64,000 nt of DNA, taken from NCBI GenBank assembly GCA_000827205.1, contig KN832567.1, forward strand, positions 906,540 through 970,539, in the 5' to 3' direction. Origin of the DNA: Plicaturopsis crispa FD-325 SS-3. Lineage: Eukaryota; Basidiomycota; Agaricomycetes; Amylocorticiales; Amylocorticiaceae. Made by a program: the position numbers and the translations under genes. Of the stretch, positions 23,953 through 50,300 are shown in pieces. Each line of letters begins with the position of its first letter. The stretch's first letter is position 1. The notes beneath the pieces were generated by a model. It worked only from the letters and a program-made list of their open reading frames with translations, had not been told where the DNA came from and searched no databases.

Positions 23953-24382
23953 GGCGTGTGTCTCGATGAGGTTGGGATCGAGAACTGCTATAGTGGAGGA
24001 GTGCGGGTGGCTACTATGGCAGCACAGCACGGACTCGAGGATTCGCGTGTCTTGGCATCACCTGTCAGTGTGATTAGATGGAGGAGATCATATCTAGCCG
24101 AAGGTGCAAATCTCCTCGTGTCGACCGACAAGAAGTGGAAGACACGCATGTCTACAGGGATATCCGCGAGCCATCCTCAACATCATCTAAGTAGTAGTTC
24201 ATGAAACGACAGTCTTTCTACACCACACAATCCTAATAATCCTACCCACACACGCAAAAGTTATTACAACAACATCCGTCGCCATACAACCCAATCTATC
24301 ACGTCTAGTTCATCGTCTCCTAGCGTACATCCACGTCCACCATACCTTACAGCTCCAGCGCGGTTATGAGAACCTAGCGTGG
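23953..24382. other. Intergenic between helix-repeat gene and esterase 2
   Basis: The promoter side of the helix-repeat gene and the 3' flank of esterase 2. No coding sequence is recognised. Confidence 0.5.
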
Positions 24383-29901: not shown

Positions 29902-32488
29902 TCAAAGAACATATCGGAAATCCCGGTTCTGGATGTCCGTCAAGTCAAGGAATTCCTATCGCCCGCCACACACCGTCAGCACCTCGAAAGGAAACAATCT
30001 CGCCACGGCAAACGCACCTTGTCGATCTTTTTATCCACCCTCTTCCCGTCCGCGTTGACATACTCGATGTACACCTCGTCGTACGTCTCGTCCGGCGGCT
30101 CCGTGTCGCGGCGCTTGTTCTCCGCCGCGAGGACGTAGCGGATGACGAGCAGCAGCAGCGGGCAGATCAGGTAGCATATGCCGATCACGATCCACGGGAC
30201 GTGGTTCCTGCGCACAAACGACGGTGTGAGCAACTGAGCGGGAGGGAAAAAAACGGCGGGTTTGGACTTACCGCGGCTTGTACTTGTCGAGCCACATGAA
30301 CGGACCCGCGGCGTTCCCGATGCAGTACGCGCACAGCATGATCGCGTTCACCGTCACGCGCTTCGTGTGCCCCGCGGTCACGTTCGACAGCCAGCTCAGT
30401 GAGAGCACGAAGCCCGTCGTCCCGACGCCTGTGGTGACCGCGTCAGTGCTGTGCATATAGACTGCGTTGATGAGGAGAAGACGTACCAGTGACATATTGT
30501 GAGCACAAAAGGCCGATCTTGTTGTCCCACGGCAGGAAGTTAAGCAGAAAGACGCCCATCAAGTTGGGGATGAAGTATATTGCGCCGACCCATGCCCTAC
30601 TGTTTGGGATTCGCGCCGCAATGTTGACACCTGCACGATGCGAGCTCAACCCCGCCCACGATTGTGGCCACTGACTGGGACTACGCACCTGTGTATATGG
30701 TGACGATCTCCACCAGACCACTGACACAGCCAAGCAGAGTCGTCTGCAGGGTGGTGAATCCGAACGATGCGACGATGATTTGCTGCTGGTTGGTGAGCGA
30801 GTTCGGGACGTTGTCGAGGGCGGAGAACAGCGCGAAGAGCCAGGTCTTGGGGTCGGTCAGCGCCTCTATCATCCTGCGTACATGGTTAGAAAAAATTTCA
30901 GAGAAAGTTTGTACGGGCGGACGTACTGCTCACGCTTGAAATGCTTGTTCTCCACTCCGGTTTGATTTTTCCTGGCATTCTGCTGTTAGCGTGGGATGGT
31001 AAGCAAAGTCAGACTGTGTACCTTGATGCGGCGGACGGCGTTGGCGCGTTCTTCCAGCGTCAAGAACCAGGCGTTCGTAGGTGAGTCGGGGAAGAAAAAC
31101 CTGGCAAATGCGGTGAGCATCGTTGCGGGCGTAGATTTATAAGTGAACATTACCAGTATACCACGGCAGTGATCAGCGTCATTAACCCGGTGATGATCAT
31201 CAACCTGTACTACTGTCAGAGCTGCGGAAGATTAACGAAAGACAAGCACTCACCACTGCCACGGCTCAAAGCCTTTCGTCTTGATATGCAGGGTGCCAAA
31301 GCTGACTAGGCCCATGACGATTTGGGCTGCACGCGTCCTATATCAGCAATGGACACCCGGACATATCGAGGACAGCACGTACCAGTGCCGTTCATCAAGA
31401 CTTTTCCGACTTATCAGTTCCCACCCATCCAACGCAAAGAAGAACAAACTCACACCAGTAGCCAACCCGCAGCGTCTGCTCGTTCCGGGTGTAAAACATA
31501 GAGCTAACGATCATGAAGCCCGCCGTGATTGCGCCTTCGCACATGCCCAAGACGAGCCGAACAACGAACAGTCCCGCAAAGTTCACGCACGCGGCATGGC
31601 AGCACAGCGCGACGCCCCATACAAAGATGTTGAGGCTAGGATGCGACGGCTGAGTTAGAGAGTGTCTACGGGGCTACGATGATGAGCATACCTCATCCAT
31701 TTCCCGACCGGGAACTTCTGCAGCGCGAGATTTTGCGGATATTCGAAAACAAGATAACCTGGCGTGGATTAGTTCTCGTCTGGTCTAGAGAAAAGGAGGG
31801 ACTCACTAAGATAAAATATGGTTCCTAGCCTGTCCGCGTCAATATGAAGGCCGTCAGCACTAAACCTCACCAGCGTTCATCATAGATGTATTACCAGTTG
31901 AATCTATGCCAGAAAGGGCAGTCAGCTCATGCACATTGGCGTATCGCGAAGCGAATGCAACGCACTGGTTCGTCGATATATGCGTGGATGCCCTGAAGGA
32001 ACACTTAGCACGAACGTCTCACGGATCATGCCACCCGCGACAGACTCACTTGATACCCAAGATAGCGGAACTTCCGAGCGTCGTCTTATCCATGAACTGA
32101 ATCCTGAGGTGCAGTTTGTCAAATGCCGAGTCCCGACTAGCGACGTCCCCGGCACACATACCAGTAAAGAACTGGCAATCATTCAGAACCGCGTAAGATT
32201 TTGTGTGTGAGAAATAGACGTACTGCACATCATGGGCAAGATATGGATGTCGATCTTCCGCCTAACGAGCACAAAAACACGCGTTCATTCAGTCGCTCCC
32301 AGCGTCAACCATAAAACCATTCAAACGCACCTCAGCCTCAAGGCCTCCGCAGGATCGAGCGGCTCGTCAGACCCGCCCGCTACGAGCTCTGCAGCGGTAT
32401 CAACCTGTGCCGTCGACACCGCCACACCCTGCTTCTCGTCCAAACCCGCCGGTTTCTCGTCCGTGGAGGCTGTCGACCCGGATCCCAT
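29902..32488 (-). CDS. MFS transporter, ACS / allantoate permease (Dal5-like) family
   Basis: The N-terminal tail is MGSGSTASTDEKPAGLDEKQ, then LDPAEALRLR and RKIDIHILPMMC. A 10-nt microexon (32162-32171) bridges to WIQFMDKTTLGSSAILGI, the hallmark of this family. Later exons show FPVGKW, NFAGLFVVRLVLGMCEGAIT, FYTRNEQTLRVGYW, MGVFLLNFLPWDNKIGLL, KRVTVNAIMLCAYCIGNAAG and PWIVIGICYLICPLLLLVIR. A last intron near 29955-30005 splices KKIDK to EFLDLTDIQNRDFRYVL, a typical end, with TGA at 29902-29904. About 10 exons. Twelve membrane spans are expected in the plasma membrane; members import allantoate, vitamins or other organic anions. The substrate cannot be read from sequence. Confidence 0.88.
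32162..32171 (-). other. 10-nt microexon in the MFS transporter gene
   Basis: Flanked by introns 32172-32223 and the one ending at 32104. It completes M-C-I-L-Y-W in phase, joining MMC to IQFMDKTT. Confidence 0.75.
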
Positions 32489-33593
32489 GGCTGCGCAGAG
32501 GAGGACGCACACTGGAGGAGACGGTGCGATAGACGCCCGGGGGACATGGGTCTATCCTACTTATACGCTTTAGAAAAAGAAGTTGATAGATAGCCTGTGG
32601 TCAGTTAACTTCTTGCACTGATAAGGGTCGGAGAAGCGGAGCCAGTGCGATGCGTACCTGTCCCGCGCACACAGGGCGTCGAGCTTGCCGGAAATGCAAT
32701 GGCAGCTGTGGGCGTCTAGTCCCTACAGTACATAGATAAGAGGTATGTACGGGTTGAATCCAGTAGTGAGTATACCGCCAAGAAAACCAGAATGAAGAAG
32801 TGTCTGATAACGTCGGCTAACCAAAGAGATTCGGAAGCTTTCCTCCTGCATGCTCCCAACTGCTACTAAGAATACGGCAGATTTACGGACGGTGCACAGA
32901 CGAGCTAAAATTGCCAGTGCCAACTGGAGGTGGCTGATTTCTGAGGCCTGTGAACGTGAGAACTATTCGAAAGGGCCGTCGAGTACGGAGAGAACGTCAG
33001 AGTTGACGCGCTGAAAGCGAGTGAGCGATGAATTTCGTTATCAATTGGAATCAGGGTCTCGTACGCTTGTTGAACGCTTGCGAGATGCTGTTATCGAGGG
33101 AATGCGATGGCGACATCGTTCGTACACGATGCAATGGATCGCAGTCTGACTTTTCCGCATAATGATAGAGTAGACGGCGGAGCGCATGCAGATGTTCGCC
33201 ACCAAACATGAGATTCATCTAGAAACGGGCGGTTGATCACGGTTATCGATTGCAAACAGACTTGAATACATACCGTAGGATGCGTCCCATGCTTATGCAA
33301 ATCCGCAAAATGGGCGGGTTCCTATGAGCGAGTGCGACAGGAAGAGGTGGAGTCGGTAGGCGGTATTGAGCACGGCACGGAGACTTCGCGAGGAGCAACC
33401 CCGAGATCCTGAAGCAGCACTGCAAGTAGGGGATATCCGGAGCGAGGCGGATGTTTAGTAGAACAACAGCGCGACGGTGTTCCGTGCATATGCGATGAGT
33501 AAGTAGCAGCCATGGACAGACACGGGGAGGAATGAAAGCATCGTCAGCAGTAAGATCTTTGCATGTACATGAAATCAGTCATGCAGCGACCCT
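32489..33593. other. Intergenic, transporter upstream region
   Basis: No gene is recognised. From about 33300 the sequence starts to resemble decayed spacer or hairpin material of the array that follows, but I cannot assign units. Confidence 0.4.
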
Positions 33594-35650
33594 CAGACCC
33601 CCTCAATGGCAACTAGACGGACTGCAGTACTGTACCAGTACACGCAGGAGGGGCGCTGCAATATGGGCTTGAGACATCCGCACTGGACATGAGGGGCTTG
33701 ATATTCCTGCGTCGCTGGCTCGACTGGATGCCCACGCATACTGCATAACATTACGCGCCAGTGGAGGCATGGCACAGTGGACGGGCGAAATGTGAAGAGA
33801 AACAAGATACATCAAGACGAACAGTCCCAATAGAAACGAGATACCCTCAGCACAGTACATATACATATAAAAGTCCATTTCCGTATTCTCCCGCAGAGAG
33901 GTACGGAAGTTAGGACTTGGGAGAGCCGCAGGTGCCGCTGAGGGGGAGGCATCATGGTGCGACCGATCTGAGAAAGCCAAGAAGAACAAGTAAGATTGGA
34001 GTGGACACGGCACCGCACGCGAATTTTTCGTATTAGGGAGGGGACAGCGGGCGAGCCACGCATACAGCAGCAGTAACAGCCGCATTCCCTCAGTGATACA
34101 GGGCAATGGGCATACGAGTCCCGCCGTGGACTTCTATCGAAGAAGCACACGGGCTAGACTTGAGAGCGCTGCAAGGTGCCGCTGAGGGGAGGTTGCTGCA
34201 CTGCGAGGATGCCGGGACGGGATATAGATGATTGTATCGAGTAGTGAGTATAGCACCAGATAATGGAACAAGCGAGAATGTGCAGCGACGGAGAAGGATA
34301 GATCCCTCGAGATCCTCTGGTGGCAAAGGGATGAAAGTCCATCGCGATACGCTCGCAACCAGATGATCCCGACGGGTGGTCTTCCCGTGCACGATGCTGT
34401 ATCGCAGTCGAAGGGAGAAATACAACGCGAGATAGACGGAAACACAAGTTGAGACGTACGGCAGCCATCATACGGAGACACCAGAACCCCTCGAGGCCAC
34501 CTAACCGTTGATTTACAAGCCCATCGCAGTACATCCGTAAACGGCGCAGCATGCTGGGCTTGATCTGTCGCAGACGGTCCTCGAGGGGGAGGGTATCTCC
34601 GCACGATCGGACGCGGTGATGCAATATCTGTGAGGGAGACGGGGCGCATAGGAATGCGGCGGACAGCAAATAGAAACGTACAAATCCCTCGAGGCCATCT
34701 GACCGTCGACTTACAAGCCCGTCGCAGTGCATCCGTAAACGGCGCAGCATGCTGGGCTTGATCTGTTGCAGAGTCCTCGAGGAGGATGGAGTGTCCAAAC
34801 GCATTGCTGAGCCGCACCGTATTACTCCGATCGCTGTGTTGGAGTGTTGGAATTGGAAAGGCACCAATCGTGTTAGCGACGCAAGGACCGCAATCGCCGA
34901 AAATTACTGGGTTGCTGAATGCACAGCGCAGAAAAACACATTTTGGCCTGCATATGCATGACCCACGAAGTCTGAGGTTTAAGTTCCTTGAGCATAGTTC
35001 GCTCTTCAGATCGCGCAGAGGATGGAACAGGACGAGAAAGCAAATTCCTGCTGCCAGCGGGGGACATGGGCGTCGTAAAGAGAGAACGGTTGTCAAAAAC
35101 TTGTGGCGCAAAGATCGTGGGCGGCTTTGTCCGTATTTGCACGCGCCACCGCCACAATATCGTTTACTTCCCAGTGATTTGACGCAAACTTACGCGCAGA
35201 ACTCGCGCAGACGAGCCAGGACCCCGGACAATGCCCACGGAGGCTAGATCTCAAATTCAGCTTGTTGTCCGGCACAAAATCGTTGATTTTCAGGGATCTT
35301 GTCCGACATTGGACGTGGCCTGGAGACTTTTTTCAGCCACAAATTGCCATATATGGAAGGTATTTGCCAAAAATTTCCGGCCCTTCGGGCCTTTCCCCCC
35401 GGAAGCCGTCTAAAATCTGACTTTGTGTCCGTTTTGGAACAGGCCCTCTCGAAAATGACCCCTCGATTTGTCCGGTCAGAAACTGGCCTGCGGCTGCGAA
35501 AATCGATTTGTTGTCCGTGCCAAGATCCAGCCTTTACAGGCATTGTCCGGGGTCCTGACGAGCCCTGGGACAGACGTCGCATGCGATCTACGCTATATAC
35601 ATAGAGACATAGAGCGATATCAACGGTTGTGCTATAATATTGATGGTGGT
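33594..35650. repeat. Higher-order repeat 1 (degenerate)
   Basis: Contains an A-like remnant (33594-33700), two B hairpins (33838-33948, 34082-34192), a C-like remnant (34308-34400), two A hairpins (34486-34591, 34685-34783) and spacer block S1, which is interrupted by the MITE at 35218-35556. It is the most diverged copy, consistent with an old array edge. Confidence 0.65.
35218..35556. mobile_element. hAT-like MITE, 339 bp, with perfect 18-bp TIRs and 8-bp target duplication
   Basis: The ends are AGGACCCCGGACAATGCC and its exact reverse complement. GACGAGCC is duplicated on both sides (35210-35217 and 35557-35564). Homologous spacer blocks near 39065 and 40880 read CAGACGAGCCCTGGGACAG without interruption, giving direct empty sites. 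The interior has no coding capacity and holds repeated TTGTCCG and AAAATCG motifs. An 8-bp duplication is the hAT superfamily rule; perfect inverted ends suggest a fairly recent insertion. Confidence 0.9.
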
Positions 35651-37430
35651 GCCAGGGCGCCCCTGGCTGCATGTTGAGGCAAGTAGCAGGACGACGACGG
35701 ATGCCAAGTATGCATGCACCCGGAAAGACCGAAGAAGCGAGCACGAGGCTGGCTGGGCTCCCTCAGGGACAGCTTACGGTGTACTTACAAATGCACCCCC
35801 GTAATCTCTCAAAAGAGGTACCCAAGGCTGGACTTGAGGATGCCGTAGGTGGCGCTGAGGGGCTGGCCCTCATCGACTGCTGGACCACTCTGAAAAAGGA
35901 GGATTAATTAGTACTATACGGGCGCGGCATCTCGAGTGCACCGCGCACCGAGAGGAGGGCGATCACAGCGAGTATTCGCCACATGCAGATGACAACAACA
36001 GCGGTAACAGCCACATTCCCTCAGGGCCACATAACGGTGGATTACAAATCCACCCCCACAGCCTCATCAGAGAGGAACGGAAGGCTGGACTTGAGAGCAC
36101 CGCGGATGACGATGAGGGGTAAGTGGGTCGCCGTACCGTAGTACACCAGACAGACGGACAGTAGTACACAAGACGAAGATGTGAGCGCAAAAATTCGGCA
36201 CCGCGAGAAACACGAGAAAAAAGCATGCACAATGCAGCGTCCAGGAACGAAGAAACCGCGATTCCCTCAGGAAAGCGCAAGCAAACGAACAAAAGTCTGT
36301 CGCAGCATACCCGCGAAGGAGGTATTGCGAGTGGACGGAGGCAATTGCTGACGGCCCCCAGGGGAGAGATTCCTGCGCGTGACGCTGTACTACGGCAGTT
36401 GGAGAAAGGAATGGAGCGATCGATTGCGAGACATACAGGGTTACGCATCGATGTCTCGTAGCATAGGTGGGGATGGTAGGATACGCGGCGAGCGACGTAT
36501 GGAAACACCAGTTCCCTCGAGCAGGCTTGTATGCCGGCAAGCCCGTCGCAGTACACCCGCAGAAGGCGCAGCACGGCGGGCTTGAGAACGGCGAAGGTCC
36601 TCGAGGGGCGGTGGGTTTCGTGTACGGTTTGTTCGGACGTGAAAGCGATGTAAGGAAGTGGAATGAGGCGAGCGAAGCACGGGAACGCGGGATGCCCAGG
36701 AAGATCTCTGTCGTTTACACGCCCGTCGCGGTACACCCGCAGAGGCTGCAGTGCGGCGGGCTTGAGCGTCTGACAAAGGTCCTCGAGGGGGAGGACATTT
36801 CCGTACGGATCGCAGCACCATTCGACGGTATGAGAGGGAGACTGGGAGTATGCAGAAGTGCGGCCAACAGCAAATGGAAAGGTCGGGCCCCCTCGGGACC
36901 ACATCACAGTGGACTGACAAGCCCATCGCGATACATCCTTGAACGGCGCAGCACGGTAGGCTTGAGCAGCCGACACGCGTCCCCGAGGGCGAGCATGTGT
37001 CCGCACGCATCGCTGGATTGCGTTGATCGCCTCGTATCATTATTACTATTACTGCTGAGGGAAGGCAATAATGGTGCTGGCGGCGTAAATTATACCTACG
37101 ATCGCCGAATATGACTAGATCGCTGGCTGCCGGAGAGCATCAGCGAAACGACGCCTCAACACAGGTTCGCACCTACGTGAACCCGGCATCTCGTAGGCAG
37201 CGTGGGCGTGAATCATTCTACAGATCGCGCAGAGGATGGAACAGGGCGAGAAAGAGGGGATAGCTCGTCCCAGTGGGGGACATGGACGTCGGGAGGAAAG
37301 AAAAAAAAGGTCGAGAAGAGTTGTCGAAGAACCATGGCGCACAACCGTGGCTGGCTTTGTCCGTATTTGCATGCGCCACCGCCACAATATCGTTTACCTG
37401 CGATAGAGACATAGAGCAATATCAATGGTT
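35651..37430. repeat. Higher-order repeat 2
   Basis: B hairpins 35753-35866 and 36007-36120, C hairpin 36250-36370, A hairpins 36513-36607, 36685-36800 and 36889-36990, then spacer block S2 (37098-37430). Confidence 0.75.
37098..37430. repeat. Spacer block S, copy 2
   Basis: Shares with the other copies GCATCAGCGAAACGACGCCT, TTCTACAGATCGCGCAGAGG and CGCCACCGCCACAATATCGT. The minus strand carries a run of eight or more T, a possible terminator if that strand is transcribed by Pol III (inference only). Other copies: about 34870-35217 plus 35557-35650, 38738-39140 and 40590-40980. Confidence 0.75.
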
Positions 37431-39140
37431 GTGCTATGGTGCCAGGAGAAGTACTTGGTCGACGGCGGAGACACACGGAGCAGGAGCAGAAGTTTGCGCC
37501 ATGTTGAGGCGAGCAGCAGGACGAGCGCCAAGTCTACATGCACCCGGAAGGATCGAGAAGTAAACACGAGGGGAGCTAGGCTCTCTCAGGGCCACCTTAC
37601 GGTGAATTATAAGTCCAACCCCGCAATCTCGTCAAAGAGGGACCAAAGGCTGGACTTGAGAGCGCCGCAGGTAACGCTGAGGGGGACATCCGAAGTGTGC
37701 GGGCCGATTGCTGTACCGCTCTGGAAAAAAAGAATGAATATGTGCACATGGAACCTCAAGCGCGCCACGTACCCCGAGTCCTCGAGTCAACCGCACACCT
37801 CGAGGTATGTGATAGCAAGGATACTGCACATGCAGCAACATGAGCAGCGATAGCAAATGCACGCAGAAACAGCAGCGAAAGCAGCCACATTCCCTCGGGG
37901 CCACTTAACGGTGGATTACAAATCCACCCCATAACCTCGTCAAAGAGGGATGGAAGGCTGGACTTGGGAGCGCCGCGAGTGACGCTGAGGGGTAACCGCG
38001 TCGGTGATTGCTGCGTTGAACTGCGCAAGAAAGAAGCGCCACAGGACGCAGGAAATCAATGAGCAACAGCAGGGGGAAAAGCGTGATTTCCTCAGGAAAG
38101 CGCAAGCAACTCAACACAAGTCCATTGCAGCATGCCCGCAGAAGCGGTGCTGCAGGAGGACGTGGGCGATTGCTGATGAGCCTGAGGGAAGAGATTCCCG
38201 CCCGTGATATTCACGGTAGTAGGAGGAAAGGAGTAGAGTGATAGAGCGCGATCAGACGGGGATGCACACCGAGATACCGCAGAACTGGCAGGGATAGTGG
38301 GATACGCGGCGAGCAGCATACCAAAACGCTGGACGCCCTCGAGACTACAACAATATCGTCGACTTACAAGCCCGTCACGGTACACCCGCAGAGGGTACAG
38401 TGCGGCGGGCTTGAGCGTCTGACAAAGGTCCTCGAGGGGGAGGACATTTCCGTACGGCTCGCAGCACCATTCGACGGTATGAGAGGGAGACTGGGAGTAT
38501 GCAGAAGTGCGGCCAACAGCAAATGGAAAGGTCGGGCCCCCTCGGGACCACATCACAGTGGACTGACAAGCCCATCGCGGTACATCCTTGAACGGCGCAG
38601 CACGGTAGGCTTGAGCAGCCGACACGCGTCCCCGAGGGCGAGCTATGTGTCCGCACGCATCACTGGATTGCGCCGATCGCCTCGCATCACTATTACTGCG
38701 GAGTAAAGGCAATGATGGTGCTGGCGACGTAAACTCATCGCCGAATATCACTAGATCGCTGGCCGCCGGAGAGCATCAGCGAAACGACGCCTCAACACAG
38801 GTTCTCACCTACGTGAACCCGGCATCTCGCAGGCAGCGTGGGCGTGAATCATTCTACAGATCGCGCAGAGGATGGAACAGGGCGAGAAAGAGGGGATAGC
38901 TCGTCCCAGTGGGGGACATGGACGTCGGGAGGAAAGAGAAAAAAGTTTGAGAAGAGTTGTCAAAAAACCGTGGCGCACAACCGTAGCTGGCTTTGTCTGT
39001 ATTTGCACGCGCCACCGCCACAATATCGTTTACCTCCAGTGATTTGACGGAAACTTATGCGCAGACGAGCCCTGGGACAGTTAGACGAAGCATACAATAC
39101 ACGCAATATACGCAGTGACATGGAGCAATATTAATTGGTG
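37431..39140. repeat. Higher-order repeat 3
   Basis: B hairpins 37583-37685 and 37890-37994, C hairpin 38083-38200, A hairpins 38336-38442 and 38536-38640, then spacer block S3. The second A unit and S block are nearly identical to those of repeat 2, so the duplication is recent or homogenised. Confidence 0.75.
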
Positions 39141-40980
39141 TGCCAGGAAAGTATTTACTCGTTTGACGGTTACATCACGGTCCATTTACAAGCCCAACCC
39201 CGCATTCCCATGCGAAGGGTAAGGAAGTCTGTTTTTGAGGTACCCACGAGTGACGCTAAGGGGAAGCGTGCGTCGCTGATTGCTGGACCGCTCTGAAGAA
39301 AAAAGGAGAGTTAATGAATATATAGACATGGCGCCGCGCGCCGAGAAGAAGGACGGCATAGTAAGCATACTACATGTGCAGCAGAAACAACAGCGAAGCA
39401 GCCACATTCCCTCAAGCTTCCACATCACGGTCGATTACAAATCCACCCCCACAACCTCATCAAAGAGGGACGAAGGGTCGACTTGAGTGTACCGCGAGTG
39501 ACGCTGAGGGGTAAGCGCGTCGGTGATTGCTGCGTGGAACTGCGCAAGAAAGAAGCGCCACAGGACGCAGGAAATCAATGAGCAACAGCAGCGGGAAAAG
39601 CGCGATTCCCTCAGGAAAGCGCGATTCCCTCAGGAAAGCGCAAGCAACTCAACACAAGTCCATCGCAGCACCCGCGCAGGCAGGAGGACGTGGGCGATTG
39701 CTGATGAGCCTGAGGGAAGAGATTCCCGCCCGTGATATTCACGGCAGTGGGAGGAAAGGAGTAGAGTGATAGAGCGCGATCAGACGGGGATACACACCGA
39801 GATACCGCAGAACTGGCAGGAATAGTGGGATACGCGGCGATGAACATATAGAAACGCGGGTCCCCTCGAGGTCATTTGACCGTCGACTTACAAGCCCGTT
39901 GTAGTGCACTGGCAAACGGTGCAGCACGACAGGCTTGAGCAGCCGGCAAAACGTCCTCGAGGGCGAGGGCGTTTGTGTACGGATCGCTACGATCGCAAGA
40001 GAGAAGTAGGCGCGAAGATGATGTTGGTGAAGACGAGATATGCGGCTAGCGACGTATGAAAACGCCGGACGCCCTCGAGGGTCTTTTCCAGAGGTGAAAA
40101 GCCCGCCGCGGTATGACACACTCGCAAGCGGCGGGCTTGAGCAGCCGACAGGCGTCCTCGAGGGCGAAGGGTATGTGTACGGATCACCGCGATCGCAAGC
40201 GCGAGAATGCGAAATAGATGTTTGTGAAGGAGTGAGGTGCGGCGAGCGGTGTACGGAGACGCGTGTCCCCTCGAGCCCAACTTGACAAGTTACAAGCCCA
40301 TCGCGGTACATCCTTAAACGGCGCTGCACGCTAGGCTTGAGCAACCGGCAGGCGGCCTCGAGTGCAAGGGCATCTCCATGCGAATCGCAGCACGATTGGA
40401 CAGTATGTGAGGGAGACTGGGAGCGAGCAGCAGACGCAGACGGCGAACGCCTCGAAGACACACTGCGAGAGATACAAGCCCATCGCAGTGCATCCTTGAA
40501 CGGTGCAGTACGCTGGGCTTGATTCGTCGCAGACGGGGAGTGCATTCTCGTGCGGATCGCCGCACAGTGGACGCGAGGACTGCAATTGCCGGCTGCTGGA
40601 TGTACAACGAGCGTCAGCGAAACGACAGCTCAACACAGATTTTCACCTACATTAACACATTCTCTAGTAGGGAGCTTGGGCGTGAATCGCTTTATAGAAT
40701 GAATAGACAATGAAGTAGAGCCTGAAAATGCGGGTTTCGGGGACATGGGCGTCGTAAAGAAAGAACGGCGTCAAAAAACTGTGGCGCAAGTCGAAGGCCG
40801 ACTTTGTCTCTATTTGTACGCGCCACCGCCACAATATCGTTCACCTAACTTACAAGCAATTTGACGGAAACTTATGCGCAGACGAGCCCTGGGACAGCTA
40901 GACAGTACATACAATGCATTTCCAGAGATATATCCACACAGAGATATGCATAGAACAGTGGATGTGCGAGGGGGTAGATG
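39141..40980. repeat. Higher-order repeat 4
   Basis: B hairpins 39165-39264 and 39408-39512, C hairpin 39600-39725 (with a direct duplication of about 20 bp in its left arm), A hairpins 39861-39968, 40069-40168, 40271-40365 and 40450-40540, then S4 (40590-40980). Confidence 0.75.
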
Positions 40981-41770
40981 TACTCGGACGCACCCTAAAC
41001 CCCATCATACGTCGGTACCCGCCCTCAAATCATGCGCCTCTCAATAAGCCCATGGTAGGCAGTACTCTCGCATAGAGGCATTCCACGCTGGGCTTGACTG
41101 AATGGAGAACTGGAGCGGTGGGTGGGGATCGTTGTTGATGCAAGCAACAGGAGGACGGGTGCTCAGTCGGCAGGAACCCGGGAAGAGCAAGAAGTGAACG
41201 CGAGGGTAGGCTCGCAGCGCTAGTCTCCCTCAAGGCCACTTAACGGTGGATTACAAATCCGCCCCCATAACCTCATCAAAGAGGGATGGAAGGTTGGACT
41301 TGAGAGTACCGCGAGTGACGCTGAGGGGAGGCGTGCGTCGCTAAGTATTACACCGCTACGAAAATTAAGGAAAATTAATTAGTATACGGATGCGGCATCC
41401 CGAGTGGATCGCGCCAGCGGTAGCAGCCGGACTCCCTCAGGATCATATCACGGTCGATTACAAATCCACCCCCGTACTTCTATGCAAAGATGGACGGAAG
41501 ACTGGACTTGAGAAGGCCATGAGTGACGCTGAGGAGAGGCGCGTCGGTGTTGCTGCGTCAGAGTACGCAGATTGCTGCGCCATGGAAAGCAAGAAAGAAC
41601 AGTGAGCGCGAGAATGCAGAACAGCGAAGTATGCAAAAAAAAAGGATGCAGCAGCGGGAAAAGCATGATTCCCTCAGGAAAGCGCAAATAAACGAACACA
41701 AGTCCGTCGCAGCAGATTCGAGAAGGAGGTGTTGCGAGTGGACGAACGACGGGCGGAGACACTATATCCC
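40981..41770. repeat. Higher-order repeat 5, B-B-C part
   Basis: A degenerate hairpin at 41010-41130 precedes B hairpins 41224-41328 and 41432-41535 and a C hairpin at 41667-41750, which runs directly into the expanded A series. Confidence 0.7.
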
Positions 41771-44693
41771 CCTCGAGGATACTCCCCGGTGGACGAACAG
41801 GCCCGCCGCGGTACCGTGTACGCTTGCACACAGTACAGCGCGGCGGGCTTGAGCAGCCGGTAGACGTCCCCGAGGGCGGTGGGTTTCTTGTACGGATCGC
41901 TGCAATGCCAGAGAGAAGTAGGCACGAAGATGTAAAGTCAGAAGGAGGGAAGAATGGCGAGCGAGGTATAGAAACGCCGGACGCCCTCGAGGACACCTGA
42001 GAGTGGCTTGACAAGCTCGTCACGGTACACCCGTAAATAGGGCAGCACGACAGGCTTGAGCAGCCGACAACGGTCCTCGAGGGCGGTGGGGTTTGTGTAC
42101 GGATCGCCGGGATCGCGAAGACGTAAAGTCAAAAGGGGAAAAGCGCGGCGAGCAGCTTACAGAAACGCCGGACGCCCTCGAGGATTGCTTCCCGAGGGAT
42201 TACAAGCCCGGCGCGGTACACCCGCAGACGGTGCAGCGCGGCGGGCTTGAGGCCGGGAGGTCTCCTCGAGGGGAAGGGCGTTCGTGTATGGATCGGCGCG
42301 ATCGCAAGGAAAAATTGGACCTGAGGAAATGTCTGGGAAGGAGCAAGGAAGGAGGGAAGAACGGCGAGCGACGTACGAGAACGCGGCACGCCCTCGAGAC
42401 TACGTCGTAGGAGCTACAAGCCCGTAGCGGTACACCCGCAGAGAGTGCAGCGCGGCGGGCTTGAGCATCCGACAAGGGTCCTCGAGGGTGAGGGCGTTCG
42501 TGTACGGATCGCTACGATCGCGAAGATGTAATGTCAAAAGGAGGGAAGCGGGGCGAACGACGTTCTGAGACGCCGGCTTCCTCGAGGATTCCTGGTAGGA
42601 GCTACAAGCCCAGCGCAAAACACCCTTAAACGGTGCAGCACGGCGGGCTTGGGCAGCGGACAGACGTCCCCGAGGGCGGTGGCGTTCGTGTACGGATCGC
42701 CGTGATCGCGAAGATGTAATGTCAGATGGAGGAAAGCGCAGTGAACGACGCACGAGAACGCGGCACGCCCTCGAGTACACTGGGCGAAAGATGACAAGCC
42801 CGTCGCGGTACACCCGCAGAGAGTGCAACATGACAGGCTTGGGCAGCCGGCAGGTGTCCTCGAGGGCGGTGGCGTTCGTGTACGGATCGGCGCAATCGCG
42901 AAGATGTAAAGTCAGAAGGAGGAAAGCGCGGCGAGTAGCACACGAGAACGCGGGACGCCCTCGAGCCTATCACTGGTCAGGTTACAAGCCCGTCGCGGTA
43001 TGACACACTCGCAAGCGGCGGGCTTGAGGCCGGTAGACGTCCTCGAGGGCGGTGGGCGTTCGTGTACGGATCGCCGGGATCGCAAGAGCGAGAATGCGAA
43101 ATAGATGTTTGTGAGAGAGTGAGTGCGGCGAGTAGCACACGAGAACGCTGGATGCCCTCGAGGAGTTGCTTCCCAAAGGATCACAAGCCCGTCACGGTAC
43201 ATCCGTAAACGGTACAGCGCGGCGGGATTGAGTGTTTGACCAAGGTCCTCGAGGGCGGTGGGGTTTGTGTACGGATCGCCAGGATCGCAAGAACGACGGG
43301 CGCGAAGATAATGTTTGTGAAGAATGAAGAGCGAGAGAGGTACGGCAAAGCGTGTCGCCCTCGAGGAGACTGGGCTATTTATATTAAGCCCGTTGCGGTA
43401 CACCCGTGAACGGTGCAGCGAGCGGGCTTGAGGTATCGACAGACGTCCTCGAGGGCGGTGGGGTTCGTGTACTGATCGCCGCTATCGGGGAAACGATGGA
43501 TGCGAAAGAGGTCTGGGAAGGAGGGAAGAGCGGCGAGCGAGGGACGGGAACGCCGGACCCCCTCGAGGACACCTGGTGGAGTACAAGCCCGTAGCGGTAC
43601 ATGCAGAGGGTACAGCACGGCGGGCTTGAGTATCCGACAGGTGTCCTCGAGGGCGGTGGCGCTCGTGTACGGGTCGCCGATCGAGAGGTAAATGCAGGCG
43701 CGAGGATGTGGAGTGAGGAGGGAGTGAATTGCGGCGAACGACATACAATGACGCCGGTCCACTCGAGTACACCTGAGAGTGGCTTGACAAGCCCGTCGTG
43801 GTACACCCGCAGAGAGTGCAGCGCGGAGGGCTTGAGGCCGGGAGGTGTCCTCGAGGGCGGTGGGGTTCGTGTACGGATCGCTGCAATCGCGAGCGCGAGA
43901 TGTCTGTGAGGGAGGGAAGGGCGGCGAACGACGTACGAGAACGCGGGACGCCCTCAACGACATATGGTGGATCACAAGCCCGTCGCGGTATGACACACTC
44001 GCAAGCGGCGGGCTTGAGTGTCTGACCAAGCGTCCCCGAGGGCGGTGGGCGTTCGTGTACGGATCGCCGGGATCGTGAGGTAACAGCAGGCGCGGGGGTG
44101 GAGGGGAGAATGAGTAAGCGCAACGATCAGCGCACGAGAACGCTGGACGCCCTCGAGGACACCTGAGAATGGCTTGACAAGCCCAGCGCAGAACTTCCGT
44201 AGACGGTGCAGCGCGGCGGGCTTGAGTATCCGACAAGGGTCCTCGAGGGCGAGGGCGTTTGCGTACGGATCGGCGCGATCGATCGTGAGGTGACAGTGGG
44301 CACCGAGGTGCAAATACAGTGAAGGAAAGAGGTGCGGCGAACGACGTGAGACGCCGGTCCCCTCGAGGATTTCTGGTAGGAGCTACAAGCCCATTGCAAA
44401 ACACCCGCAGAAGGTACAGCACGACAGGCTTGAGTATCCGGCAGACGTCTTCGAGGGCGAGGGCGTTCGTGTACGGATCGCCGCGATCGATCGTGAGGAG
44501 ACAGTAGGCACCAAGATGCGAATCCAGTGAAGGAGGGAAGAACGGCGAGCGACGTACGGAAACACCAGAACCCCTCGAGGCGATATTGCGGCATACGTCT
44601 AAGCCCGTCGCAGTAAACCAGCAAACGCTGCATTGTGACAGGCTTGAGCCACCGACAGACGACCCCGAGGGTGAAGGCATCTCCACAACGCCG
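41771..44693. repeat. Expanded series of 15 A-family hairpins, ~200-bp period
   Basis: Outer-arm starts lie near 41771, 41979, 42170, 42391, 42570, 42769, 42955, 43153, 43351, 43559, 43759, 43950, 44149, 44362 and 44573, a mean spacing of about 200 bp. Each hairpin has CCTCGAGG arms, an inner CAAGCCC/GGGCTTG stem and a flank GTGTACGGATCGCCG. Linkers are purine-rich. Three units (40069, 42955, 43950) share a variant loop GGTATGACACACTCGCAAG, a sign of unit exchange. Confidence 0.85.
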
Positions 44694-45767
44694 CGCCAAG
44701 ATGCAATGAGGCACGCACAGGCCGGGGCAGAGAACGCACCCTCCACCCTATGCATCCACAGCGATCGAAGGAGGGGATCGCCCATAGCGATCGAGAGAGG
44801 GGAGATGGCGAAGCAGCAGGCGCGAGGCAGGCGGCGTAAGGAAGGAGGGAGGGTTGAGCTGCAGATGAAAAAAGGGAGTGAGTGGCGCGAGATGGTGGTG
44901 GCGTGGTTTGGGCTTGTTTGGCAGGGGCGTGCCGTGCTGTCCGGGCGGATCGGAGTCGTGACCTCGTCATCGCCCACCTCTCCATGTCTGCCCGAGCCCG
45001 TGCCATTCATGTCTGCCCTTGCGCCCATCTAGTGTGAGATGATGTGCACCCGACCCCGTTCCTGCCCGCACGTCCGCCCGTGAGCTCCGCCTCGTAGTCT
45101 CTGCCCTGCATCCGCACGAAGGCGCCACGACGCACGCGACGAGGTGTAGCGGGTCTTGCAGACGTCCTCGTATGCGGAATCGTCGTCAATCTGAGCGTGT
45201 GGTAGGCGCACGATGGAATTCCATCGCTCAAACGACTAGAATGCTTAAGGATATGTAGGAAAGCCTTGGCACAAGCAGGATATACCGCGTCGGATGCCAG
45301 CACCGTTGTAAATTGGTTGTGAATTATAATCAATGATCGTGCAACCGCCCTGTACTATACGCTAAGAACTTGGGCTGCGGATGTGCACATCACCCCCGGA
45401 GCGCGCCCGTTCTAAGTAAGTAGATGAATGCGCGGTCAAGTATGTACAAAATCGCCGACGAGTGAGGAGTGTGCTTGTCCCTCCGCAAACGCAGACACTC
45501 CACCGGTAGTGTCCTCCTCCCCAGCTTCCTCCGTAGGCAAGTAAGAACGTCCATGGTATGACACGGGTACGGGACTGGGAGATCCAGACGTCGGTGGGCG
45601 AGTGCTCGACGATCTATGACACACACAAGCAGCGAGGGATGTGCGTGAGGCGAGTTGAGCAAAGACAGTCGAGTCGAGCCGGTGAAAGCCAGGTTATTTG
45701 GGAAGCCAGGTGTGAGTCAAGAGAAGTTATACGAGGAGCAGAACAAGACGCGCCCAACACCCCCACA
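44694..45767. other. Intergenic between hairpin array and RING gene
   Basis: A minus-strand frame open from 45028 into the array looks like chance openness of GC-rich repeat DNA. No gene is supported here. Confidence 0.5.
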
Positions 45768-46925
45768 CTAGGCCTTATAAACCCGTATCCACCGCCGCAC
45801 ACCGTCCCTGCACACGGGGCACGTAGCCTCCCGCCCCGGGCCTCCTACGGCCGCGCGCCCAATGTCACCAGCAGCGGCACGCCCCGAGTCTCCAGCATCG
45901 TCTCCAGCAGCACCAGTAGTAATAGCCGCACGGAGCGCATCGTACCCCATCTGCCCGTGCGATCCCTCACCATCCGCAATTAACTCGGTTCCGCGCACCT
46001 CCGCTCCTGCACCCGCCTCTCCCCCCTCATTACCGCGGAGGAGCGGCGTGCCTGAGTCTGAGTGCAAGACCGGCGTACGCCCACAGAACAACCGCCCCGC
46101 ACACCCGCGACACGCGACGAGGTGCGCGCAGGGGAGGAGCAGCGCGTCGCGCGGCGCGGCGAAGCAGATCTTGCATGTGTCGTCGTCTGTGTACTCGATA
46201 TCAGCGTCATCCTTGTCTTCTTTGCTTGTGTGTACTGGGGAAGGCGCGGCGACTGGGTGCAGAGGAGGCACGGTGGCAGATGGCAAAGGAGGAACGGCGC
46301 CAGGAGCGAGGGTTGCAGGTGCAGGTACGGCATCATGGGAAGGGGCAAGGGGAACAGCGAACATATCCGCCAACGGCGACACCCAATCCGGATCTGCAGC
46401 GATCTCCGCCAGCGACGCTGCCCCCCACGCCCTAGACGTCGCTGCGCCCCACGCCCTGGACGACGTCGTGCCCCATGCCCTGGACGTCGCCGTGCCCCAC
46501 GCCTGCGTTGTCGACGCCGTGCCCCATGCCCGCGCGGTTCGTTCTAGTCGTTGTCGTTGGGTGTGGGAGAGGTTTCGCGCGATGTCGGCTGGCGAGGGGG
46601 AGGGTGGCGTGGATGCGGTAGAGGAAGCAGGAGAGGTGGAGGACGAAGCAGACGAGCCTGAGGTAGATAAGGTAGATGCTCTAGCGCACCACGCCTGACA
46701 CGGCGAACAATACCACGCCCAGCGCGTCCCCGTCGGGGTATACCCCACCCCATCAACATAAACCCGATAACCCCCCGAGGACGTGTGTGGGCGGCGGTCG
46801 GCGCAGGCGCAGCAGGTGGGGACGGCGGCGGAGAGCGCGCAGTGGTCGTGGCCGCATGCTTTCTGGGCCGGCGCTGTGAGTGAAACGTCGACTAGATGGG
46901 GAGGATGGAGGGAGCGGGGTGGCAT
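45768..46925 (-). CDS. RING-finger protein with large insertion in the zinc-binding domain
   Basis: Intronless frame, 385 residues. The N-terminal part has paired cysteines (QKACGHDHCALSAAVPTCCA, WYCSPCQAWC) that may bind metal. Residues about 135-170 repeat (S/A)RAWG(T/A)(A/T)S five times, from a minisatellite. The C-terminal RING reads CKICFAAPRDALLLPCAHLV then ACRGC and, after about 90 residues of Gly/Ala-rich sequence, CPVCRDGVRRWIRVYKA at the C-terminus. Normally only about 10-20 residues separate these ligand pairs. The sequence resembles MGRN1/IAP-type RINGs that end soon after the last Cys pair. It probably acts as an E3 ubiquitin ligase. The start MPPRSLHPPHLV is the first in frame. 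An intron removing part of the insert cannot be excluded. Confidence 0.75.
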   Translation of the reverse strand: MPPRSLHPPHLVDVSLTAPAQKACGHDHCALSAAVPTCCACADRRPHTSSGGYRVYVDGVGYTPTGTRWAWYCSPCQAWCARASTLSTSGSSASSSTSPASSTASTPPSPSPADIARNLSHTQRQRLERTARAWGTASTTQAWGTATSRAWGTTSSRAWGAATSRAWGAASLAEIAADPDWVSPLADMFAVPLAPSHDAVPAPATLAPGAVPPLPSATVPPLHPVAAPSPVHTSKEDKDDADIEYTDDDTCKICFAAPRDALLLPCAHLVACRGCAGRLFCGRTPVLHSDSGTPLLRGNEGGEAGAGAEVRGTELIADGEGSHGQMGYDALRAAITTGAAGDDAGDSGRAAAGDIGRAAVGGPGREATCPVCRDGVRRWIRVYKA

Positions 46926-47311
46926 CGTGTAGTAGCGGGATAGAGTGGGTATGGTTTACAGAGGGTTAACGCTATGTTTTACGGAGGATTCATGCATTAG
47001 CGACAAGCCGTGCCACTGCACACCCTCCTGGTGGCGGTGCACGTGATTATATTGGCCGACGCGTTCGCGATTGTGGTGGACGCGTCGTGATGGAAGAGCT
47101 CGAGGAGTCTTGGTCAGAGAGTGCATGGGGTGGGCATAAGAGACATAGACATAATCGGCATATAGCAAAGCGAGAGAGAGGGGGGGGGAACAGCATGTAG
47201 TAAGTAGTACGACGATACGCGTCATAATCGTCCGCGAGTAACCATAACAGTATTAGAGTAAATCGTAAAGTAATAATCGTCAAATCCAAGGCGCGATGAG
47301 GATGAACAACC
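46926..47311. other. Intergenic between RING and zinc-finger genes
   Basis: Short AT-richer stretch with a GAGAGAGAGG tract near 47168; no gene. Confidence 0.5.
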
Positions 47312-50300
47312 CTAAGCCGGCCCAGGCGTATTCGGACAACTCATCTTCCTCCTCTTCCCCCCGTCCAAATGCCGCTGCAGCGAGCTCCGCCGCGAGAACG
47401 CCGCACCGCAGAACGGGCACCGCGCGTGCTCCGAGGCGAGGTGCGTACCAGCGACGTGCACGCCCATGCTCTGCATCTGGATGCGTTTCCCGCACCCTTT
47501 GCCGCCCATTCCACCCTTGTTCCCACCCTTGTCCTTTCCTCCCGTCCCGCCGTTGCCCGTTGGAGCCTCGGAGACGGTGGAGGTGGTAGAGTCGGTGGTG
47601 GTAGAGTCGCCCGCACTGGCACACGCCCCCCACTCACAAACCGCATACCCCTGCTCCACATACGCCCTTCCCTTCCAGTGCGCCGCGCGGAAGTGCCGCA
47701 TCACGGGCGCTTTGCCGAGCCCGACGATCGTGCCGGTGCATCCGGGCCATTTGCAGGGGAAGATCGGGAGGGAAGCGGGGGAGGAGGGGCGGGTGGAGGT
47801 GGGGAGGAAAGGAGTAGAGGTGGGGAGGAAGGGGGTAGAGGAGGCGGTGAAGCGCGGGCGTTTGGCAGGAGGCGAGGGCTCAGGAGGGTCCGCGAGGTCA
47901 GGAGGAGCAGTAGAGGCGGACACGGATGCCGACGAGGGGTGCGAGGAAGCCGCCGTGCCAGACGACGGGCTGGTCGAACCATACGAACCCGAAAGAGCCC
48001 TCGCCCTCGCACGCGTCACAGGCCCGAAGTACCACTCCTTCCCCGCCTCGGACGCCGTGCGCTTCGTCCCTCTCGGCGCTTGGGGTAGATCGCTCGTATT
48101 CGTGTTGGCGTTCTTGTTCGTGGTTTCGGCGGGCCTGTAGGAACGAGTAAGCAAGGAGGAAAGGAGATGAGGGGAATGAAGGGAAAGGAGACGTACGAAG
48201 CAGCGTCGTCATCGAAGGTCGGCGGGAGCTCGTACGCGGGGAGACGCGGTTCCAAGTTGCTCGGCGCGGGGTCGTTCGTGTACGCCGCAGCCGACTCGTT
48301 CGTGAATGCCGCAGCCGACTCGTTGAATATCGCAGTCGGGTCGTTCGTGAACGTCGCAGCAGGCTCGTTCGTGAATGTCGCAGGAGGCCCGTTGAATGTC
48401 GCAGCAGGATCGCTTGAGATGCTCGCGGGAGGCGCGTTCGTGTACGCCACACCAGGCTCGTTCGTGAATGTCGCAGCAGGCCCATTCGCGTATGCCGCAG
48501 TCGGGTCGTTCGTGAACGTCGCAGTCGTCGGCGCGGGTGCAGGCGCGTGCATCAACGTCGCAGCGGGGCTAATCCCGTACTGCTCCTCGGGGTTGATCCC
48601 ACACTGCTCGGCCTCCGCGTCGTTCTCAGCCGGGGTGAATTTCCTGTGCTTCCATTAGCACCACCGTCCACGACACAGAAGATACGAAAGGGAGAGAATG
48701 AGGGAGATAGGGAAGACGCAGACTCACATGAACCCATCAACCGCCCTGGGGAGCGGCACCACCGCCGTCGGGCTCACCTCTGCGAAGCCCGTCTCCATCA
48801 CGTCTTTGGTGTCCCTATATTTCGTAGCACGTCAGTCATTCTATCCTAGTCTTTACTCTAACTCGAGCGAAGGGGAAGCGAGAGGGAAGGGTATAGGGTA
48901 GAGAAGAAAACAGGATAAAAGGGTAGGAGAGGAGGGACGCACACGACATGACACGCCCACTCGACGTGCGCGAGCAGGCACACGGCGTAGTGGTTCCCGA
49001 CGTCGCTCGCGGGGAGGGTGCAGTCGTAGAGGTAGTCTTCGTCGGCGTCGTCGTCTGAGTCGTCGTCTGAGTCGTCGCTTTCTTCTCCGTCCTCGTAATC
49101 GTCTGAGTCGGAGCCGCTGTAGTCCGAATCCTCGGGGTAGTCGTCGTTGGAGTCCTCGTAAGCAACGTCAGCCTCGTCCTCGCCATGGTCCTCGCCATGG
49201 TCGTGGGTGTCGCAGGAGGAGTCGTGGGTGAAGGAGGAGCCATGATCCCCATCACACCTCAAAATCCGCTCATCGCACACATCCACAACCGGCTTCGCCT
49301 CGGGGTTCACGCTCGGGTTCTGGGCAAGCAGCGCGTCCAGCTCGTCCTGCGGCATCTCCAGGTCCTCCTTTGCGAGAGTGACCCAGTCGACGAGTTCGCA
49401 GCCGCACTTCAACCGCCGTCCCTTACCCTTTCCCCCACCGTTTAACCCGTCGAGTAGCCCCTCGCCCTCAAACCACCCCACCAAAACACCCACATTCCCA
49501 CAAACCCACTCCAATGTCTCCCTATGCGAGACGCTGAACACGGCGTACAGGTAATGTTCCCAGGGCACGTGTGCTACGACGCGCGACACGAGGGCGGGGG
49601 AGAAGAGGGGGAGGGTTAGGGTGGAGAGGGCGGACCATGTGTGGGGGATGCGCGAGGTGGGATCGGTGAGCGGGAAGGAAGGGGTGGGGTAGGCGGGCAT
49701 GTCTGTGAATGCGGGAGAGCTGCGTAAAGGGTCAGGGTAGGGCGTTAGGGTGGGGAAAGAGCAAAGAGGAGAGGACGAGCGTACGTGGGCTCGAACACGA
49801 ATGCATAGTCCGCGGGGGCGATGAGCTCGATGCTGCCAAGCATCGCCTCCAGCTGCCTCTGGATCTCCGGCTCGCTGTAATCACCCGTGTTAATCACATC
49901 TCTCCGCGCACAAGGGAAGGGAAGGGAAGGTAAGGAGGTAGGGAAGACGTACCTCGCCTGTACCTGGACGCCCGCATCCAGCTCAGCGAGCTCCGCCTCT
50001 GTGAAGAGCACGCACCCGGCGTCGTCCTCTGCGGGGGTGGTCGGCGCTGTGGAAGTGTTCTGGGAGGAGGGGGAGGATGGGGAGGAGGGGGAGGAGAGCG
50101 AGCTGCTGCATGTGCGCGGCGGGTGAGACTTAGGACTTAGGAGAGAGAGGGGAGGGAGGGAGAGAGGGAGAGAGGACGTACCCAGCGCTCACGGAGACGT
50201 CCAGCGTGATCGTAGTTTTTGGATCCGTGTAGTCGGGGCGTCTGCATCGTAGCACCGTGCGACAATTAGCGGACGGCAGAAAGCACAAAATGGAAGGAAG

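Follow-up and report, generated by a model that had tools for sequence, protein, structure and literature searches.

A single-locus array of 43 hairpin units in Plicaturopsis crispa, possibly a non-coding hairpin-RNA locus

Results

The window analysed here, a stretch of 64,000 nucleotides of the genome of Plicaturopsis crispa, the one species on which this study is based, holds an array of hairpin units (33597..44693, + strand) between two genes. As the preliminary description of this DNA had proposed, these neighbours appear to be a transporter and a RING protein. On the left lies what is probably a spliced gene for a major facilitator superfamily transporter (30268..32551, - strand, outer limits approximate), one of whose six exon-like frames matches PF07690 with an E value of 2e-4, under the curated cut-off, and on the right a RING-finger protein (45768..46955, - strand; PF13920, E 2e-9). 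The left gene reads away from the array and the right gene has its 3' end toward it, an arrangement that fits a transcription unit on the + strand. Some 65 kb separate the array from the terminus of the 1,016,680-base contig, and no two consecutive telomere repeats (TTAGGG) occur in the last 9,981 bases of that contig, in agreement with the earlier view that the position is not obviously subtelomeric.

By reading of the sequence the array comprises 43 units belonging to three families, 26 of family A, 12 of family B and 5 of family C. A covariance model (R1) trained on the 26 A units alone was searched against both strands of the whole window, giving 70 matches at E<=1, all of them within 33586-44685 and none in the window beyond the array. 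On the + strand there are 41 matches, which include every one of the 26 A units (E values from 5.6e-14 down to 1.1e-28, matched by construction since they are the source of the model), 11 of the 12 B units and 4 of the 5 C units, one of the latter weakly (E=0.17); the two units missed are a degenerate B near 39160 and a truncated C near 41666. Since B and C units are matched by a model from whose training they were absent, we conclude that they are homologues of A. The earlier count of about 43 hairpins over 11 kb is thus reproduced, with 41 of 43 units recovered by R1, and the covariance-model check that had been suggested gives, within the window, a signal confined to the array.

The unit order spacer-B-B-C-A-A is repeated across the array, as defined by sequence reading and R1 on the + strand. 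Block 1 (33597..34790) consists of B, B, B, C, A and A at 33597, 33843, 34084, 34303, 34484 and 34682; Block 2 (35756..37010) of B, B, C, A, A and A at 35756, 36014, 36260, 36512, 36690 and 36888; Block 3 (37586..38655) of B, B, C, A and A at 37586, 37888, 38086, 38334 and 38536; and Block 4 (39160..40560) of the degenerate B that R1 leaves unmatched, followed by B, C and four A, at 39160, 39406, 39603, 39860, 40068, 40266 and 40444. Block 5 (41008..44693) begins with a degenerate B, two further B and the truncated C (41666, unmatched by R1), and ends in a terminal run of 15 A units with a spacing of 188-215 nt. Neighbours in this run are 76% identical, against 75% for other unit pairs, which gives no indication that the run was locally homogenised in recent times. 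A representative full-length A hairpin (43525..43685, + strand) has an extended outer stem, an inner CAAGCCC/GGGCTTG stem and a conserved 3' tail. The inner motif pair and CCTCGAGG, which is its own reverse complement, are near-invariant in the arms of family A. Family B does not retain this outer palindrome; in its outer stem CCTCAG pairs with CTGAGG of the opposite arm.

Four of the spacers carry a conserved block, a candidate promoter or processing element, at 35103..35167 (spacer 1), 37335..37397 (spacer 2), 38971..39033 (spacer 3) and 40781..40844 (spacer 4). These blocks are more conserved than the remaining spacer sequence and share an invariant run of 22 columns, which none of 5000 column shuffles produced. 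Two spacers are 91% alike across 400 bases, indicating that larger blocks were exchanged. Spacer 1 also contains a later insertion foreign to the array (35218..35556), a MITE-like element of 339 bp with inverted ends and an 8-bp target duplication, GACGAGCC, of which further copies are dispersed in the genome. The higher-order unit order, the conserved spacer block and this transposon-like insertion were absent from the preliminary description. The linkers are purine-rich, as had been stated there, with 74% purine on the + strand of the terminal run; across the array the + strand has 58% purine, compared with 51% in the flanks.

As far as our searches reach, the array is a single locus. An A unit, a pair of B units and a spacer, used as DNA queries against the genome, found the array locus only, among the matches listed. 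A forward-strand search of the 33.2-Mb genome for the pattern CCTCGAGG-N75..105-CCTCGAGG gave 14 occurrences, always inside the array, and one for the reversed-letter control. Exact CAAGCCC-N3..30-GGGCTTG occurs 5 times in the genome, twice within the array, and is no commoner than its reversed control.

A public gene model, PLICRDRAFT_178745, describes a spliced protein-coding gene on the - strand over the array, and several features might appear to support it. The frame 43379-45028 (- strand) is open for 549 codons; in the right part of the array the - strand can be read for 437 codons without a stop, which exceeds the longest frame in 200 mononucleotide shuffles (433 codons); and stops number 52, 71 and 79 in the - strand frames, compared with about 110 expected from base composition. 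However, 12 of the terminal run's 14 unit spacings are not divisible by three, which places successive units in differing frames, and no three-base periodicity is consistently seen in the variability. The + strand is likewise stop-poor (101-120 stops against 149 expected), and the long frames may be explained by the repetition of stop-poor units. Pfam has no match at E<=0.1 to three array frames or to the public gene model, as expected from the earlier statement that no recognisable protein is encoded, and the sole match among 8000 candidates scored in a protein search is PLICRDRAFT_178745 itself. On frame, periodicity and homology we therefore reject a - strand coding gene as highly improbable, despite open frames longer than shuffled ones. 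Nor does the array match a described RNA family, again as had been thought: Rfam gave 0 matches at E<=1 over 30000-48000, and a tRNA scan found none. Family C (CTGATGAG...GAA) bears what we take to be a resemblance to the hammerhead core, a candidate dropped for lack of an Rfam match. A promoter and terminator scan of bacterial type, unsuited to a fungus, returned chance numbers.

Pairing between the arms was compared in an alignment, A4, of 35 of the 43 units, which omits A units 38527, 40434, 42944 and 43936, B units 33585 and 41000, and C units 34293 and 41650. A count of 23 pairs over 22 rows of A and 10 rows of B gave 5 whose most frequent pair is different at both positions in the two families: pair 27/133 is GC in 22 of 22 A rows and AT in 9 of 10 B rows, 28/132 is AT in 18 and GC in 6, 60/108 is CG in 22 and TA in 9, 63/105 is GC in 14 and AT in 6, and 66/102 is GC in 14 and CG in 9. 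Six other pairs (29/131, 33/129, 59/109, 64/104, 67/101 and 68/100) are mostly unpaired in B. Over all 35 rows, C included, 79.6% of cells are paired, compared with 73.9% after shuffling (0/500) and 32-48% when slid. A tree simulation used 32 of these rows, the three C rows being removed on account of a one-position shift that the aligner introduces in their inner arm; it expected 64.2% pairing (sd 4.5) where 81.4% is observed (0/1000) and 21.5 doubly changed cells where there are 52 (3/1000), and the five strongly exchanged A/B pairs were reached in 5 of 1000 runs. In a separate analysis, of 25 of the 26 A units, columns that pair are more conserved (80% identity, n=125) than unpaired columns inside the hairpin (67%, n=40; p 9e-6). 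The hairpin form is retained between families beyond the tree-based null.

Inside the families, the first arm-exchange test took 25 of the 26 A and 10 of the 12 B units, leaving out 38527 as a recent duplicate and 33585 and 41000 as degenerate; a unit's own arms pair better than exchanged ones with p 0.003 (A) and 0.02 (B) on the + strand and p 0.015 (A) and 0.08 (B) on the - strand. Among all A units (25 of the 26 taken) own arms are 77.0% paired and exchanged arms 75.7% (9/2000), and within B the figures are 82.8 versus 80.3% (1/500). Shuffling within A gives a chance-level result (80.5 versus 80.0%, 109/500), and exchanging the arms in the terminal run hardly lowers pairing (180/2000). Compensation inside family A is near chance. 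In the joint alignment neither the pairs changed on both sides (11 versus 10.5, 249/500) nor the further pair types (32 versus 32.2, 326/500) are raised; these two measures are the ones least misled by relatedness. Mismatches of G.T and A.C type carry no strand signal (106 versus 130 cells; 193/1000 in the tree simulation).

The consensus of the terminal-run A units folds into a single hairpin with 63 long-range pairs (-112 kcal/mol, 187 nt), in keeping with the long family A stem and nested inner stem described before. All 26 A copies are weaker, at -57 to -96 kcal/mol in 176-nt windows, and the minimum-energy fold has 34-58 long-range pairs in 25 of them and none in one. Terminal-run hairpins show no gain in stability over versions of the consensus carrying random mutations in the same columns (p 0.17). 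In the array, stable local folds (<=-45 kcal/mol) are no denser than in the flanks, at 1-6 per kb over the window, and z<=-2 was reached by 11 of 24 units, scored for array units only in fixed 146-nt windows of the + strand. What is unusual is repetition and nested inverted symmetry, rather than folding energy itself.

Discussion

The reading that we prefer, with a probability of roughly 40%, is that the array may be a non-coding hairpin-RNA locus feeding Dicer, by analogy with a tandem hpRNA cluster of Drosophila. One or few transcripts, most likely of the + strand, would consist of strings of ~160-nt hairpins linked by purine-rich unpaired stretches, with initiation at, or processing from, the conserved spacer blocks, perhaps. 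Dicer would cut the hairpins into small RNAs, which would be loaded into Argonaute. A stem of 63 pairs would be an ordinary Dicer substrate, and several loci of the genome encode Piwi (PF02171) and RNase III (PF00636) domains. Two 21-nt probes from the A arms, with <=3 mismatches allowed, hit 2 and 1 sites beyond the array, and their reversed controls 1 and 2, so that these probes give no sign of a target. It is possible, if doubtful, that the locus is a fungal tandem hairpin-RNA cluster in a fuller sense, in which 43 diverged hairpins of three families form modules, each opening with a conserved spacer element that serves as promoter or processing site, and give polycistronic precursors diced into related small RNAs; such a cluster would have arisen separately from the hpRNA clusters of insects, perhaps under the pressure of an arms race.

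A serious rival, and itself quite possible, is that the array is a local functionless satellite which arose by inverted-repeat duplication and inherited its pairing from a near-perfect ancestor, with template switching or arm-to-arm conversion improving imperfect palindromes without selection. It agrees with the lack of a target for the two arm probes and of a match to a known RNA family, with compensation at or near chance within A and with two of the five joint-alignment measures being at chance. The consensus hairpin outscores every A copy, as erosion would give, and higher-order repeat order of the kind seen here is typical of unequal crossing-over. However, passive decay as simulated falls short of the 81% pairing (0/1000) and of the five exchanged pairs (5/1000), paired columns are conserved above unpaired ones, neighbours in the terminal run show no greater likeness than units further apart, and the spacer block is conserved above other spacer sequence. 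If the array is only a satellite, its exchanged A/B pairs require a non-selective repair of hairpins, which would itself be worth knowing.

Less likely is a structured long non-coding RNA, or a cluster of ~160-nt RNAs, that acts folded and undiced, for example as a protein-binding scaffold. It shares the pairing evidence with the hairpin-RNA locus; the near-invariance of CAAGCCC and CCTCGAGG in A suggests a bound partner, and repeated units may fit multivalent binding. Against it stand the lack of an RNA family match, a 63-pair consensus stem that would suit Dicer, and a genome that has Piwi and RNase III. Improbable, in our view, is a DNA-level element, whether an array of palindromic protein-binding sites or cruciform DNA involved in chromosome organisation: the palindromic CCTCGAGG and CAAGCCC/GGGCTTG are among the most invariant letters of A and the mismatches have no strand preference, but B does not keep the outer palindrome and has CCTCAG/CTGAGG there, the linkers are strand-asymmetric at 74% purine, and there is one locus only among the search matches listed. 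The preliminary description had offered structured non-coding RNAs, small RNAs derived from long hairpins, or a satellite under selection for its hairpin form. This is partly supported, by the pairing kept between families, the more conserved paired columns and the presence of Piwi and RNase III, but none of the three is singled out.

Comparison with known repeats helps to place the locus. Satellite DNA with higher-order repeats has monomers of ~200 bp in repeated order, and the P. crispa units likewise stand in repeated order. Unlike a satellite, which occupies several loci or chromosomes, the array lies at one 11-kb locus among the DNA-search matches listed, its terminal-run units are about 75% alike and its nested hairpin symmetry is kept. 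MITE-type transposons are short elements with inverted ends; the hairpin units differ from them in standing head to tail and in having no dispersed copies among the matches listed, in contrast to the 339-bp MITE-like insertion within the array.

Fungal mi/milRNA loci resemble the array in having hairpin precursors, but they were called from small-RNA reads and the array from DNA sequence (PMC9757828, in excerpt). That re-analysis covers 41 species, and its main text has 0 occurrences of the words "tandem", "cluster" and "Plicaturopsis" (PMC9757828). Among the open-access papers listed, judged mostly on titles and abstract openings, there was no comparable fungal hairpin-RNA cluster. If transcribed and diced, the array would represent, in a fungus, a large gene cluster dedicated to hairpin RNA. 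For P. crispa a poly(A) transcriptome from long reads exists, according to the excerpted source (PMC4503453), which makes the hairpin-RNA question directly testable.

The closest parallel is hp-CG4068 of Drosophila, for which excerpts of PMC10317233 describe many tandem copies of one hairpin (20 in D. melanogaster) and report that it is transcribed, that dcr-2 mutants lose its siRNAs and that mus308 is a target. Common to both are tandem homologous hairpins at a single locus, and the consensus stem of P. crispa, measured for A, has with its 63 long-range pairs the long duplex of hpRNA clusters. The P. crispa array differs from hp-CG4068, so far as those excerpts describe it, in being basidiomycete, in its 43 units of three diverged families, in its higher-order order and spacer blocks, and in being known from sequence alone. 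The likeness that we suggest is one in manner of working, without claimed descent. In Drosophila simulans, the same excerpts state, hpRNA loci suppress selfish meiotic-drive genes (PMC10317233); since hpRNAs silence drive genes there, a target of the P. crispa hairpins could indicate genomic conflict in a mushroom.

Results

The array (33597-44693) had been described from the sequence as about 43 long hairpins, and our reading likewise gives 43 units, of which 26 belong to family A, 12 to family B and 5 to family C, with nested arms visible in the unit alignments A1-A3. A covariance model built from the A units only matches 41 of the 43 units at E<=1 on the + strand, with 40 reaching E<=0.01, and has no match beyond the array in the whole window. 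The order of the units is non-random: B-B-C-A-A blocks, some with an additional B or A, are separated by four spacers of 0.4-1 kb each, and the last block closes with 15 successive A units at intervals of 188-215 nt (the terminal run). As the preliminary description held, the outer stem of family A continues when flanks are added to the units, and the linkers are purine-rich, with about 40 nt between hairpins of the terminal run and 74% purine on the + strand. The terminal-run consensus folds on this strand with 63 long-range pairs (-112 kcal/mol), and its reverse complement folds at -104 kcal/mol. Several B units (e.g. 36037-36053) carry a small inverted repeat, GTGGATTACAAATCCAC, within the 5' arm; pairing within it would be at the expense of the long-range inner stem, and two folds could be possible. 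At 39597-39641, one C unit has a doubled start, the result of a 19-bp tandem duplication of AAAGCGCGATTCCCTCAGG, and a recent segmental duplication links about 36750-37400 with 38400-39050, its outer limits judged by eye.

Genome DNA searches with an A unit, a B pair and a spacer find matches at the array only (the counts being lower bounds), and the array is the only place in the genome with the double CCTCGAGG pattern; the exact inner-stem pattern by itself is not specific to it. The suspicion that no known family matches is upheld by an Rfam search of the array, which returned no match.

The window covers positions 906540-970539 of contig C14 (1,016,680 bases) in a genome of 33.2 Mb and 49 contigs. 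The right contig end lies about 65 kb beyond the array end, and two consecutive telomere repeats are absent from the terminal 9,981 bases of this contig. The array sits in a gene-like position between one diverging and one converging gene. The left neighbour (- strand), a probable transporter, reads away from the array; its MFS_1 match comes from one of six exon-like frames, at E 2e-4 and under the curated cut-off. The right neighbour, a RING protein gene also on the - strand, has its 3' end towards the array. Farther out are genes for ATG13 (3177-4232) and Peroxin-3 (59483-61494), and at 51757-56012 (+) AMP-binding, phosphopantetheine-attachment and hexapeptide-repeat stretches stand side by side, possibly an NRPS-like or reductase-type gene. 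The stretch 23001-24000 (GC 64%) has a locally very strong AT skew of -0.383; a 411-aa open frame on its - strand has no match in a Pfam search.

Among the 8000 candidates scored in a search with an array frame, the one protein matched is PLICRDRAFT_178745 of P. crispa FD-325 SS-3 itself, modelled at 45010-43387 (-). Since three pieces of it map onto the array and its right flank at 97-99% identity, this model is probably not a real gene and most likely represents the hairpin array misread on the - strand.

When the four spacers are aligned, 150 of 332 ungapped columns are invariant, including 45 within one 60-column stretch (0 of 2000 shuffles that high) and 22 in a row (0 of 5000 shuffles). 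Two of the spacers, one copy being 37000-37400, are recent duplicates (91% identical over 400 bases), leaving about three lines for the comparison. The 26-nt core CGCGCCACCGCCACAATATCGTTTAC, which lies ahead of B units on the + strand, occurs at four genome places at <=3 mismatches, one in each spacer; our guess is a candidate promoter or processing site. Spacer 1 also holds a recent, MITE-like insertion of 339 bp (35218-35556); its ends, AGGACCCCGGACAATGCC / GGCATTGTCCGGGGTCCT, are inverted, GACGAGCC is the 8-bp target duplication, and spacers 3 and 4 show the uninterrupted sequence. Elsewhere in the genome the element has four matches: two span the full query at 96-98% identity, a third reaches 77% and the fourth is partial.

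In the joint alignment A4 (35 of 43 units), the commonest pair is changed on both sides between families A and B at 5 of 23 pairs, and at 6 of 23 most B rows lack the pair. Paired cells make up a larger share than in any of 500 shuffles or any slid structure; neither the pairs changed on both sides (249 of 500) nor the number of pair types (326 of 500) is above shuffles. Because shuffles leave relatedness in place, we built a tree null from 32 A and B rows, with a paired ancestor and paired columns evolving independently at their own rates. Paired cells amount to 81.4% against 64.2% (sd 4.5) under this null (0 of 1000 simulations), doubly changed cells to 52 against 21.5 (3 of 1000) and strongly exchanged pairs to 5 against 1.2 (5 of 1000), figures to be taken as indications since this null is a simple one, with kappa fixed at 3 and rates drawn from the alignment under test. 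Pairing is thus largely kept between families.

Within family B, own partners pair oftener than shuffled ones (1 of 500; covariation score 53 of 500), and within family A they do not (109 of 500). Whole-arm exchange among 25 A units gives own arms a small advantage (9 of 2000; terminal run, 180 of 2000), and in duplex energies, too, own arms do better than exchanged ones (p 0.003 on the + strand and 0.015 on the - strand). The stability of extant terminal-run hairpins does not exceed that of the consensus with random mutations at the same columns (p 0.17). Column conservation is 80% at paired columns (n=125) against 67% at unpaired columns inside the hairpin (n=40; p 9e-6), and lower, 51%, at flanking columns (n=20). 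Taken together, the between-family and within-A results show that pairing is under constraint over the longer term, whereas over the shorter term it mostly reflects shared sequence.

Discussion

The reading that we find likeliest is a putative hairpin-RNA locus that would supply Dicer, suggested by the tandem long hairpins, the unpaired purine linkers, the gene-like place and the Piwi and RNase III domains that a domain search finds encoded in the genome. Layout and purine linkers alone favour the + strand as the putative transcribed strand; mismatch types give no strand signal. Pairs could also have been exchanged through non-selective repair, which can alter quasi-palindromes, but such repair should strongly favour own arms within family A, where the own-arm advantage is weak. 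We give a satellite without function a real chance as an account of the array. Genome searches with two A-arm probes at up to 3 mismatches found no target for a hairpin RNA: the probes hit 2 and 1 places outside the array, and their reversed controls 1 and 2. On contig C4 (1764434-1768017; loci L031/L029 and L043), Piwi matches lie about 2.4 kb from an RNase III match on opposite strands.

Among the matches listed in the open-access literature searched, there is no tandem hairpin cluster in any fungus, and the main text of a re-analysis of hairpin small RNAs in 41 fungal species (PMC9757828) contains the words 'tandem', 'cluster' and 'Plicaturopsis' 0 times each. With no membership claimed, the closest described counterpart known to us is the Drosophila hp-CG4068 cluster, which the array resembles in its tandem hairpin copies; according to PMC10317233, D. 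melanogaster has 20 of these in tandem and D. simulans 9, produced from a common transcript.
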